Part shown: positions 73 to 46,630 of the stretch, piece by piece
How positions within the stretch are numbered: the first letter of the stretch is position 1
How the letters are laid out: each line of letters starts with the position of its first letter
From: Halanaerobiales bacterium
Lineage (GTDB): Bacteria; Bacillota; Halanaerobiia; Halanaerobiales; M55B127
Direction of reading: 5' to 3'
DNA: 57,187 nucleotides
NCBI GenBank assembly: GCA_018334565.1
Contig: JAGXLU010000011.1
Coordinates: forward strand, 1 to 57,187
Translations under genes and position numbers: made by a program
Notes under the pieces: model-generated
Databases searched by the model: none
What the model saw: the letters and a program-made list of their open reading frames with translations, nothing else
What the model was told of the DNA's origin: nothing

Positions 73-1629
<1,557 letters not shown>

Positions 1630-1677: not shown

Positions 1678-2208
1678 TTAATTGCCCTTCCGATTATAAT
1701 CAGTATTATAATAATCTTCTTCTAAAATTGACATTACAACAATTGTTATATATTTGTCTTTATAAAAATACCTGTCTCTTATTACTCCTTCTTTTATAAA
1801 ACCATTTCTTGTATAAAATGCTTCGACCTTTTTGTTAGAAAGAAAAAAATCAAGCCATAGTTTATGAAAATGTAGTTCTTCAAAAACATACTCCTTAAAT
1901 AATCTTAGAAATTCACTTCCATACCCATTGTTTTTATCACTAATAACAATCCTTTTAAGTTCAATGCTTTTATTTTTACTATTTAATCCCGCAGTAATAG
2001 CATAACCAATTTTTTTATTATTTTCATTTGTAATTATTAGATGTAAGGTATCATTGCCTTCAATAATGTCTTTATGTTGGTCTTTCGTATATTGAAAAAC
2101 ATTATCTTTATTCTCTACATCTCCTTCTAATTTTATAACAAATTCAAGATCTTTTTCTTGGGTTTCTCTAATATTAATTTTTTTTGAACTTTTTAAAATC
2201 TTTGCCAT
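1678..2208 (-). CDS. GNAT-family N-acetyltransferase (RimJ/RimL-like)
   Basis: 176 residues. The N terminus (INIRETQEKDLEFVIKLE) is the usual first strand-helix of RimL-type GNAT proteins. Acetyl-CoA loop residues are seen around ISDKNNGYGSEFLRLF, and the C-terminal FYTRNGFIKEGVIRDRYF segment is typical of the family. It probably transfers an acetyl group to an amine on a protein or small molecule; the substrate cannot be told. A good RBS (AAGGAG) precedes the ATG. It lies downstream of nothing obvious and is transcribed toward the serS promoter, so it is probably monocistronic. Confidence 0.85.
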   Translation of the reverse strand: MAKILKSSKKINIRETQEKDLEFVIKLEGDVENKDNVFQYTKDQHKDIIEGNDTLHLIITNENNKKIGYAITAGLNSKNKSIELKRIVISDKNNGYGSEFLRLFKEYVFEELHFHKLWLDFFLSNKKVEAFYTRNGFIKEGVIRDRYFYKDKYITIVVMSILEEDYYNTDYNRKGN

Positions 2209-2332
2209 AACTTAATCTCCTTAAAGATAATTATTGTTAAACACTTACTATTTTACTCAAATTAATTAAGGTAAAATAAAAATACAAAACAATAAAAGAA
2301 AAAACAATAAATATAAACAAGGAGTGATATAT

Positions 2333-2440
2333 ATGTTAAATCATGGAAATCGTGATTTTAGAGATTTTTTCAATCTATCCAAAAAACCAATAAAAGGAAA
2401 TCGTGATTTTAGAGATTTTTTTAAAGAAAATAAAAATTAA
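2333..2440 (+). CDS. 35-residue microprotein with an internal duplication
   Basis: A small ORF starting ATG TTA AAT CAT, with a strong RBS (AAGGAG, 7-8 bases before the ATG), runs 36 codons to TAA and is followed 13 bases later by a strong intrinsic terminator. The product is basic and aromatic and contains the motif GNRDFRDFF twice, spaced 17 residues apart, ending in a Lys/Asn-rich tail. The two motif copies are encoded by a perfect 26-base direct repeat (2345-2370 and 2396-2421). I see no signal peptide or membrane segment. I do not recognise the family. The RBS plus terminator make it look like a real mini-transcription unit, but it could be a regulatory RNA with a fortuitous ORF. Confidence 0.55.
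   Translation: MLNHGNRDFRDFFNLSKKPIKGNRDFRDFFKENKN
2345..2421 (+). repeat. 26-base direct repeat inside the microprotein gene
   Basis: Two identical copies, 2345-2370 and 2396-2421, lie 51 bases apart (17 codons), so the repeat keeps the reading frame and duplicates the peptide motif GNRDFRDFF. Perfect identity at synonymous positions points to a recent duplication or to selection on the nucleotide sequence. Confidence 0.9.
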
Positions 2441-2453
2441 CAAACTATCTAAT

Positions 2454-2486
2454 AAAGGAGGTGGGAAACCACCTCCTTTTATCTTT
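2454..2486 (+). terminator. Intrinsic terminator of the microprotein unit
   Basis: AAAGGAGGTGG (2454-2464), loop GAAA, then CCACCTCCTTT (2469-2479), followed by a T-rich tail (TTATCTTTTT). An 11-bp stem with a GNRA tetraloop. It could also serve transcripts from the other side. Confidence 0.85.
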
Positions 2487-2866: not shown

Positions 2867-3994
2867 CTATTTATATATTCTTGGAACCCTTTTCGTTATA
2901 TCACAGGTAATCTCATAATTTATTGTGCCAATGATATCTGCCATATCCGTTGCAGAAAATTCTTCATTTCCCTGTTGACCAATCAATATAACCTCGTCTC
3001 CTACGTCCACATCTTTAATATTTGTTACATCTACCATAAACTGATCCATACATATCCTGCCTCGAATGGGTGCGCGCTGGCCTTTAATTAATACTTCTCC
3101 TTTATTGGAAAGAAGTCGTGAATAACCATCTGCATATCCCATCGGAATTGTGGCTATCTTTGCTTTCTTTTCCGTTATATAAGTAGCCCCATAACTTATC
3201 CCTGTTTTAGGGGGTACTTCTTTTAGATATATTATTTTAGCCTTCCAGCTTAAAACTGGTTTTAACTGAAAATCTTCATCTACTTCATGTGATGGTCTTA
3301 AACCATACATCATAATCCCAGGCCTTACCATATTTAAAGCCATTTCTGGAAGATCTATTATCGTAGCACTATTAGCAGCCTGTTTGATCGGTATATTAAT
3401 ATTTTCTTCTTCTAATTTATCAATTACCATTTGAAAAAGATCCCACTGATTATAGGTATACTGTTTATCTTCTTCATCAGCTTTTGCAAAATGAGTCATT
3501 AATCCTTCAACTTCTAAATGTTTAAATGAGTTAACTCGTTTGATAAAATTTACTGCATCCTCGGGAAATACTCCAATCCTTCCCATCCCAGTATCTATCT
3601 TAACATGAACTTCTTTTAATAGACCCTTTTCCCCTGCAAGTTCATCTAATCTTTCAGCACTTTCTAATTTAGAAACAGTAGGAATTAAATCATACCTTAT
3701 TAATATAGGAATCTGTTCTGATAATACTTCCCCTAAAATCTGGATGGGGAGTTCAAATCCTCCCTCTCTCAGCTCTCTACCCTCTTCAGGTAGAGCGACA
3801 GCCAACCTATCTGCACCTGCCTCTACTGCTGCTTTTGCAACCGGTAATACACCATGACCATAAGCATCAGCTTTTACAACAGCCATTATTAAGGTGTCCT
3901 CAGGCACATTTATTTTGACCTGTTTTAGGTTAAATTTTATATTATCTAAATTTACTTCTGCCCAAACAGGTCTTGTGAGTTTACTCTTCTTCAT
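2867..3994 (-). CDS. alr: Alanine racemase (ornithine-operon copy)
   Basis: 375 residues, fold-type III PLP racemase of the classical Alr type. Lys41 in KADAYGHG should carry PLP. Tyr268 in GISYGATY is the opposing catalytic base, Arg224 in VRPGIMMYG contacts the cofactor, and GRICMDQFMVD is the usual C-terminal domain motif. It is the last gene of the ornithine operon and overlaps oraE by 14 bases, so co-translation is likely. OrtAB releases D-alanine, and Alr would convert this to L-alanine for Ald, which fits the context well. A second possibility is that it also racemises ornithine, because the dedicated racemase Orr is not here. Identity as an Alr-type enzyme is secure; the physiological substrate is inferred. 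Confidence 0.93.
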   Translation of the reverse strand: MKKSKLTRPVWAEVNLDNIKFNLKQVKINVPEDTLIMAVVKADAYGHGVLPVAKAAVEAGADRLAVALPEEGRELREGGFELPIQILGEVLSEQIPILIRYDLIPTVSKLESAERLDELAGEKGLLKEVHVKIDTGMGRIGVFPEDAVNFIKRVNSFKHLEVEGLMTHFAKADEEDKQYTYNQWDLFQMVIDKLEEENINIPIKQAANSATIIDLPEMALNMVRPGIMMYGLRPSHEVDEDFQLKPVLSWKAKIIYLKEVPPKTGISYGATYITEKKAKIATIPMGYADGYSRLLSNKGEVLIKGQRAPIRGRICMDQFMVDVTNIKDVDVGDEVILIGQQGNEEFSATDMADIIGTINYEITCDITKRVPRIYK

Positions 3995-6185
3995 TATAGT
4001 CTCCTCTTAAAGATTTAACCACAAATGTCGCTACATCATCTCCATGAGTCCCGCGGCCATATCCAGCATCGAGGCCGGCTTTTACAGCCATTTCATTATT
4101 GACCTGGGTGCCGCCTGCAATTAAGATCAGATCATCTCTAATACCTTTTTCAACACAGAGATCATTTAATTTTTTCATATTGGTCCTGTGAACTTCATTA
4201 TGACTAATAATCGTACTTATTAATATCGCATCTGCATTTGTCTCTATAGCAGCATCAACAACCTTGGATATAGGAACTGAAGTTCCTAAATAAGTTACTT
4301 TTATACCAAATCTTTCAATACCCCCGTGTTTAATATCAATAATCTCTCTCATACCAACGGAGTGTTCGTCTTTACCTACAGTCGCTGCAACAACACTTAA
4401 TGAATTTTCGTCTACAAAACCTCTGATCTCGTCATAAGGTAGGGCCTCTTCTTTTTCGGGGATTTCTAATTTGTTTTTATCGATAGAAAAGTCAACCCAC
4501 CCCTTTACTTCACATACAGTCCCTTCAGCTGGCTGCATAACTTCTTTATGAATAACTTCAGGATCATTTAAGTTCATCTTCTTGGCTATCTCAATAGATG
4601 CGTATTCAGCCACCGCTTCACTCTCTGGTATAAACATTGTTATATTAACCCAACCGTCTCCCAGCCATTGTACTTCTGGTTTGACCATATCATTTTCACG
4701 GAAATCTTCTGTTTTTTCCAATCTTTTTTCAACATTATCTTCCGGATCTAATTCATCTATAAAATCTATTTTATCAGGATTATGCAGTGTGCAACCACCT
4801 ATTAAATCACAAGGTTTATCCAGATCTTCAGGTAGATTATTATATCCAAAATGATCGCAGACCGGTGCCATGTAATCATCATCTCTTTCAACTATTGAAT
4901 TAGCAGCTACTCCACCATCTTTTTCTCTTACAATTCCATCACCATTTCTTTCTGGATATTCACCCGAATCAACAAAAAATCCTTCAGCAACTGCCTGGAA
5001 GTAACCTCCTACTTCAAGAATTTCTTCCATAAATAAAATGGCTCTTTCTTTTAATTCTCTTGACTTTTCTTTTAAATAACCCTCATCAGTTTTTAGCTCT
5101 ATTAGATCTTTTAGTCCATCCATACCTGCGAAGGCCTGTTTAGCAGTATCAACTGCTTGAACATTAAAGTAATGCCAGGGCACATTTCTCCCCTCATCAG
5201 GGGTGATTGTGCTTTGTAGATCTGCTGATGTTAATTCGGAAAGGAGTAAGTTTAAAGTATGAGTCACTGTAGCTTCTCTTATTGATGATTCCATATATTT
5301 TGTATTCTGTTGTGCTCTAAATTTAAATTCATCAAATAATTCCCTGAGTGCAATTGCATATGGTAAATTTAATCTTAAATCAGGAGCTGGTGGTGCTACA
5401 GGTGGAACTGTTGATAGTGAAATCTTGTCTTTAGGCATACCAGCTTTTACAGAAAACATGGAGTTTATAGCGTGTTGAACAAAAAGTTCAGGCATAACTT
5501 TCCAGGCCTGCCGAGCTGTCGCATTTGCATTATGGGCACCATCAATTTGCAGCATACCAGTAGAAGCCATAATCTTTTTAGCAGCCGCGGCATCTACAAA
5601 AGACCTGTACATATTTACATCTCTGTAGAGTACATTATACTGAGGATCCTGATGAGCTCCATTTACACCTTCTTCCGCAAAAAGCACAGCAATCTCTGAT
5701 CCGGCTACACCACTAACATAGGAATGGAAATTAATCGGCCTACCCACTTCATCTTCAATATAATCTAAAGCCTTGCGGGTAGCTCTAATCTGTTTCCTCG
5801 TAATAGGTATGCCACCTACACCTTCTGGTGTGCCTTCAATTAGACCATCAAAATGGCTCTGTCCAGCTGTTCTTATAACCATAATATGGTCAGCTCCATG
5901 CCAGGCTGCCATTCTCATTCTTCTTATATCATCTTCAAAACGACCGGAAGCTATCTCAGTTGTAATAACCGGTTCGGGTTGTGGATCAATATTATTAAAA
6001 CTTCTGGCAGCCGGAAGGGGCACACTATTTTTTAAGCCCTCAGAAGTTTCTTTATATTGAAAAGAGCCTATCTTTTGATCTTCTACTTTCTTTCTCCAGG
6101 TCCAACCTCTGCGACGGGGGCGATAACTTTTTATGTCTTTTAATATTTCTTCTATATCAATTTTCTTTTCCGGATTCAAATCCAT
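3981..6185 (-). CDS. oraE: D-ornithine 4,5-aminomutase large subunit
   Basis: 734 residues, the size of OraE. It is a PLP- and adenosylcobalamin-dependent enzyme that moves the terminal amino group of D-ornithine to C4, giving (2R,4S)-2,4-diaminopentanoate. The TIM-barrel part (about 80-400) is followed by a linker and a C-terminal Rossmann B12-binding domain. In that domain DEHSVG supplies the lower cobalt ligand His608, and Lys619, eleven residues on, matches the lysine that holds PLP in the characterised Clostridium enzyme. The GTSV and AGGTQ loops of the B12 fold are visible. The ATG overlaps the oraS stop by one base (TAATG), consistent with a stoichiometric complex. Confidence 0.96.
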   Translation of the reverse strand: MDLNPEKKIDIEEILKDIKSYRPRRRGWTWRKKVEDQKIGSFQYKETSEGLKNSVPLPAARSFNNIDPQPEPVITTEIASGRFEDDIRRMRMAAWHGADHIMVIRTAGQSHFDGLIEGTPEGVGGIPITRKQIRATRKALDYIEDEVGRPINFHSYVSGVAGSEIAVLFAEEGVNGAHQDPQYNVLYRDVNMYRSFVDAAAAKKIMASTGMLQIDGAHNANATARQAWKVMPELFVQHAINSMFSVKAGMPKDKISLSTVPPVAPPAPDLRLNLPYAIALRELFDEFKFRAQQNTKYMESSIREATVTHTLNLLLSELTSADLQSTITPDEGRNVPWHYFNVQAVDTAKQAFAGMDGLKDLIELKTDEGYLKEKSRELKERAILFMEEILEVGGYFQAVAEGFFVDSGEYPERNGDGIVREKDGGVAANSIVERDDDYMAPVCDHFGYNNLPEDLDKPCDLIGGCTLHNPDKIDFIDELDPEDNVEKRLEKTEDFRENDMVKPEVQWLGDGWVNITMFIPESEAVAEYASIEIAKKMNLNDPEVIHKEVMQPAEGTVCEVKGWVDFSIDKNKLEIPEKEEALPYDEIRGFVDENSLSVVAATVGKDEHSVGMREIIDIKHGGIERFGIKVTYLGTSVPISKVVDAAIETNADAILISTIISHNEVHRTNMKKLNDLCVEKGIRDDLILIAGGTQVNNEMAVKAGLDAGYGRGTHGDDVATFVVKSLRGDYNEEE

Positions 6186-46486: not shown

Positions 46487-46519
46487 TAAAATACAAGGAA
46501 AAATAATATTTGGGATGAA

Positions 46520-46630
46520 ATTCAGATGAGAGATCTTATTTAAAAAGGCGCCGAAGGAGCAAAGCTTTATAATAAAAGCTGAAACTCTCAGGCAGAAGAA
46601 ATCTGAAGGGACCAAACTCTGGACTTACCA
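46520..46630 (+). promoter_or_regulatory. Glycine riboswitch (single aptamer)
   Basis: Core GCGCCGAAGGAGCAA (about 46549-46563), then a P3 stem-loop, then ACTCTCAGGCAGAAGA, GAAGGGACC and CTCTGGA. These are the conserved elements of one glycine aptamer. I see only one full aptamer, not the tandem pair of Bacillus. The following terminator shows how it acts: glycine should favour read-through into gcvT. Confidence 0.92.

Follow-up and report, generated by a model that had tools for sequence, protein, structure and literature searches.

Does a 35-residue reading frame with two copies of a nine-residue motif, in a 57,187-nucleotide stretch of a Halanaerobiales genome (contig JAGXLU010000011.1; the whole stretch is called the window here), encode a protein that the cell uses, and if so, for what? 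Very small proteins usually escape annotation, and functional leads for them are rare. Our best explanation, to which we give a probability of about 0.5, is that the gene specifies a monocistronic cytosolic microprotein, expressed from a probably activator-dependent promoter that it has in common with the encapsulated ferritin (EncFtn) operon, and that its product is a bivalent docking peptide.

The ORF extends on the forward strand from the ATG at 2333 to the TAA at 2438–2440, and its 35-residue product is MLNHGNRDFRDFFNLSKKPIKGNRDFRDFFKENKN. The two nine-residue motifs account for 18 of the 35 residues and are joined by a linker of 8 residues. The protein contains 4 Arg, 5 Lys, 4 Asp and 1 Glu and has no hydrophobic stretch; as judged from its sequence, it is basic, soluble and devoid of a signal sequence. 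Both in this genome and in its congeners, the gene is located between a divergent GNAT acetyltransferase gene and a convergent alr gene (Table 1). A sequence-only reading of this locus had credited the ORF with its own ribosome-binding site and a textbook terminator. Indeed, an AAGGAG lies upstream of the start quoted in that reading, and the 11-bp terminator stem lies in a region with two terminator-like sites, far above the 0.2 expected from shuffles.

Table 1. Features of the microprotein locus (positions in the window)
Feature	Position	Strand	Evidence and remarks
GNAT acetyltransferase gene	1678..2208	-	PF13302/PF00583; divergent, shares the intergenic region with the microprotein gene; promoter element 27 nt from its ATG
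23-bp promoter element TGTTAAACACTTACTATTTTACT	2235..2257	+	Match to TGTTAAAYRNTTACTWTTTWACT with 0 mismatches; near-dyad GTTAAA...TTTTAC; roughly -49 to -27, provided that the -10 is correct
Predicted -10 hexamer TAAAAT	2272..2277	+	14 nt after the element; inferred from spacing conserved in nine promoters
Ribosome-binding site AAGGAG	2319..2324	+	Sequence; GGAG site at the equivalent place in all five homologues
Microprotein gene	2333..2440	+	Conserved ORF with two GNRDFRDFF motifs; dN < dS where estimable, changes biased to third positions in four species; G014 has a diverged homologue
Repeat copy 1 (GNRDFRDFFN)	2345..2373	+	Sequence comparison of 29-nt copies
Repeat copy 2 (GNRDFRDFFK)	2396..2424	+	28/29 nt identical to copy 1
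Intrinsic terminator	2454..2479	+	11-bp stem, then a T-rich tail; relatives also have stem-loops after the ORF

The window also contains a T-box leader (RF00230, 132 bits; 1409–1618, reverse strand) upstream of a seryl-tRNA synthetase-like gene (73–1401, reverse strand), and a glycine riboswitch aptamer (RF00504, 64 bits; 46515–46613, forward strand).

The same small ORF is found in three of the four sampled congeners (E values of 1e-12 to 1e-14), the genome of the fourth being 62% complete, and in these congeners the ORF again has its own ribosome-binding site and a stem-loop after the stop codon. Between the four genus species, the differences at the first, second and third codon positions are 8/4/16, 7/3/15, 7/4/11, 2/2/8, 5/2/14 and 5/3/16, with dN of 0.07–0.21 and dS of 0.5–3.7 or saturated. 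Thus the frame, whose absence from relatives the sequence-only reading would have taken as refutation, is conserved there under coding selection. Because the pattern of selection follows the codon frame, we infer that the ORF is translated and that the microprotein is a conserved, selected protein.

To delimit the family, a DNA pattern consisting of a ribosome-binding site and two motifs in relaxed form (Arg in any codon, F/Y and D/E/N permitted, 5–15 linker residues) was scanned against 84,980 species genomes. Only Halanaerobiales yielded convincing small ORFs in frame, namely the MAGs Tobar18m-G9, M55B127, SRR6193124_bin.36 and Soudan_29, and a profile search of 59 genomes of the class and 399 of the phylum yielded the identical set. 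A diverged member, MIDISTRDFRKFFGNCETKNSQVKERDYREFFNKKK in genome G014, has only 41% identity; we nevertheless take it as a homologue because it keeps R-D-[FY]-R-x-F-F twice, as well as the length, the ribosome-binding site, the terminator and the promoter. Scan matches in Prochlorococcus, Bacteroidota, Woesearchaeota and Desulfobacteraceae were out of frame, within long repeats or not gene-like; weak profile matches in the class (E values of 0.01–0.5) were rejected after reading, and single-motif RD[FY]RxFF matches in other Halanaerobiia were due to chance or inside large ORFs. We found no match in Pfam, NCBIfam, PHROGs or PDB profiles, none in phages or plasmids by tblastn or in viral contigs by the pattern scan, and nothing on the microprotein in a literature search. 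The family is genuine and new and, in these searches, restricted to a few salt-loving Halanaerobiales. Like other lineage-restricted bacterial microproteins, it is shorter than 50 residues, monocistronic and without known homologues, with its own promoter and terminator and a narrow range, but it consists of two soluble copies of a charged and aromatic motif rather than of a single transmembrane helix.

The repeat had been described as a perfect in-frame duplication with unusual identity at synonymous sites. The duplication is in frame, the copies lying 51 nt (17 codons) apart, but it is not perfect, since the last Phe codon is TTC in one copy and TTT in the other. A 26-nt word of the repeat has two occurrences in the window and none besides at ≤3 mismatches; 100 shuffles gave 0. 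The synonymous identity is real (1 of 27 nt differs between the motif copies) but is peculiar to this genome (G000): the copies differ at 4 of 27 nt in G002, at 6 in both G003 and G001, and at 13 in G014. The first Arg codon is CGT in both copies here and AGA or AGG in the congeners. In the simplest reading, this looks like recent homogenisation in this lineage, in which one copy overwrote the other. The motif duplication itself predates the genus on the protein comparison, because conservation at the protein level holds for each copy separately, and a check of repeat number, which had been proposed for related strains, gave two motifs in all five genomes with no variation.

The most informative feature of the locus, a promoter in common with the EncFtn operon, was invisible to the sequence-only reading. 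A 23-bp element with the consensus TGTTAAAYRNTTACTWTTTWACT is found upstream of all five copies of the microprotein gene, exactly 14 nt before the -10. Exact matches to the consensus occur twice in the 2.16-Mb genome, before the microprotein gene and, on another contig, ∼110 nt before an operon that encodes EncFtn (TIGR04535, PF22277) and a family-1 encapsulin shell (NF041155, PF04454). G003 has the same two exact sites, while the EncFtn copies of the element in G001 and G002 have 2–3 mismatches. In all nine aligned promoters, from microprotein and EncFtn genes together, 14 nt separate the element from TAAAAT, TATTAT, TATACT or TATAAT, and the bases that flank the element are dissimilar between the two promoter groups.

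A pattern that combines the core of the element, the spacing and the -10 had 11 matches with 0 mismatches in the 59 class genomes, although the pattern was derived in part from promoters that it later found, so that its fair measure is its rarity elsewhere. Eight of these matches are the microprotein and EncFtn promoters of G000–G003, exactly two per genome, and one is the microprotein promoter of G014; G008 and G024 have one each, leading to unrelated sequence. A reversed control pattern at ≤1 mismatch had ∼40 matches in all 59 genomes, which implies that chance would produce about one exact match. Among the remaining weak matches, those to the longer form of the element were mostly within coding frames or lacked a -10. 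One-mismatch matches to the promoter in Halanaerobium were rejected; they lie before an aminopeptidase-like gene, whose -35 (TTACAA) is an ordinary one, and before a transporter lipoprotein-like gene. Halanaerobium genomes (e.g. loci L187, L189, L191 and L194) have a conserved TGTWAAARATTTACTTACAATTT...TATAAT before the aminopeptidase-like gene, which is element-like but has TTACAA as its -35.

In the promoters that carry the element, the -35 hexamers at a 17-nt spacer are all poor (TATTTT, TTTTTA, TTTTTT, TAAACA and similar), and because of this we read the element as a putative activator site that would replace the -35 contact. The dyad within it, GTTAAA-N9-TTTAAC, is exact in three promoters, and its right half is not kept in G014. 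A resemblance to Rex or Crp/Fnr sites was also weighed; the element fits them poorly.

Because the microprotein gene and the EncFtn operon share the element with exact spacing, the microprotein is probably co-activated with the iron-storage nanocompartment, and the use of the same promoter as iron-storage genes suggests that it may act in the response to iron or redox stress. The sequence-level case for co-regulation is good; the promoters do not represent four independent events, because the four congeners are related. The association of the genes across genomes is weak and confounded by ancestry: EncFtn is present in 33 of the 59 class genomes and the microprotein in 5, all of which have EncFtn, which leaves 28 EncFtn genomes without the microprotein. 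Moreover, the microprotein gene is outside the EncFtn operon in every genome, on a different contig in G000–G003 and ∼16 kb away in G014. Neither EncFtn gene of G014 has the element, and one has a Fur-like box. Since Fur-like boxes are found in many other Halanaerobiales EncFtn promoters and are absent from the four genus promoters, the shared control seems to belong to this genus (G000–G003). In G014, the gene upstream of the microprotein gene is ferritin-like with a rubrerythrin domain, and DUF5698/DUF2179, hcp and a Crp/Fnr-type regulator gene come after it; this neighbourhood speaks for a link to iron, oxidative or nitrosative stress, and does not name the encapsulin.

Several further features of the EncFtn operons were recorded. 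The operon of this genome lies at 3721–4875 of locus L211 (contig C19), and its EncFtn ends in GLNIGDMK. G014 has two separate EncFtn and encapsulin operons (C29:25752 and C4:8594; L209 and L208), one directly after riboflavin-synthesis-like genes and the other after a lipoate-protein-ligase-like gene. In the EncFtn 5′ leader (L151, L150), a short palindrome, GCATGAAGGATATTCATGC or TGAAGGATATTCA, closely follows the predicted -10; it is partly kept in G000 and G003 and is possibly a second operator.

We propose that one transcription activator would bind the element and switch on the microprotein and EncFtn units together, probably under iron or oxidative stress. Each x-R-D-[FY]-R-x-F-F motif would form a short amphipathic helix with its aromatics on one face, and the two helices, on a basic flexible linker, would allow one peptide to hold on to a symmetric partner protein at two of its copies; this partner might be EncFtn, the shell or another protein of the iron-storage or stress response. 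AlphaFold, run on five sequences, places helices at residues 9–15 and 27–31, over the motifs, with low to modest confidence (mean pLDDT 69, pTM 0.20), and in such helices F9, F12 and F13 (and F26, F29 and F30) would be on one face. Two helices on a lysine-rich linker suggest bivalent docking to a symmetric partner. Our best guess is thus a soluble bivalent docking peptide for an iron or redox partner, which we hold less firmly than co-activation.

The microprotein does not resemble encapsulin cargo. The EncFtn-type loading peptide (GLNIGDMK, GLDIGDMK or GLNIGNMK) is found neither in its C-terminus (...RDFRDFFKENKN) nor in any homologue, and the gene is not encoded in the encapsulin operon; judged by these usual criteria, it is not family-1 cargo. 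Compared with EncFtn and family-1 encapsulin systems, it has the same promoter element and spacing in all four congeners, but its gene is not linked to theirs, it carries neither ferritin nor loading-peptide sequence, and the majority of genomes with EncFtn lack it. The possible roles that the sequence-only reading had listed included a small regulator, which is possible, and a signalling peptide, which as a secreted product is not suggested by a charged, signal-less sequence. A toxin-like peptide was also listed, but a hydrophobic toxin is not suggested by this composition either: type I toxins are likewise small with a strong terminator, but they are short hydrophobic, usually transmembrane, peptides, and the microprotein has the charged residues counted above and is a single copy conserved across species. 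An Rfam search of the window, which would miss unknown antitoxin RNAs, found no antitoxin RNA family.

A less probable alternative is that the microprotein belongs to a stress regulon and acts on a target unrelated to encapsulin, for example as an anti-regulator or protease adaptor, or by stabilising another enzyme, so that it would have only the inducing signal in common with EncFtn. The genes share a promoter with neither physical linkage nor strict co-occurrence, and the G014 neighbourhood is one of general oxidative and nitrosative stress, as this alternative would have it. However, the regulon detected in the genus consists of only two units, EncFtn/encapsulin and the microprotein, and this favours a closer functional tie. 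One form of such a tie, a new class of stand-alone bivalent EncFtn accessory peptide, in which a 35-residue two-helix tether, co-activated with EncFtn and its shell by a regulator that replaced Fur in this genus, would bridge or gate symmetric subunits and control iron loading or release, seems to us unlikely.

The element might instead belong to the divergent GNAT gene, as its promoter or operator, and merely overlap the promoter of a microprotein that is an unrelated resident. All four genomes of the genus retain the divergent GNAT gene, which may be co-controlled by the element, as its ATG lies just 27 nt away. We consider it improbable that the element serves GNAT alone, since the G014 microprotein gene has no adjacent GNAT and yet has the element, again 14 nt ahead of its -10, and EncFtn, the second site of the element, has no neighbouring GNAT.

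The earlier reading had also allowed for an RNA, and a functional small RNA or dual-function transcript would be consistent with a short monocistronic unit that has a strong terminator and a 207-nt stretch that folds with z = -3.0. This z is due to the terminator, however; the leader and coding region without it fold no better than shuffles (z of -0.3, 0.2, -0.15 and 1.0), a result that covers three species (G000, G002 and G003), and the substitutions obey the codon frame, which makes this reading very improbable. An attenuator leader peptide, with which the anatomy of ribosome-binding site, short ORF and terminator would agree, can be dismissed from gene order, as alr is convergent here and in the congeners and there is therefore no co-directional downstream gene to attenuate.

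Thus, the preferred reading, a docking peptide co-activated with EncFtn, provides this microprotein with a testable lead, a rare promoter architecture in common with the iron-storage operon of an encapsulin. Should this link prove false, the gene still encodes a well-delimited, selected two-motif microprotein, a model of the duplication and homogenisation of a short motif. If it is true, encapsulated-ferritin systems would gain an accessory encoded apart from them, and this would be a genus in which control of EncFtn may have passed from Fur to another activator.
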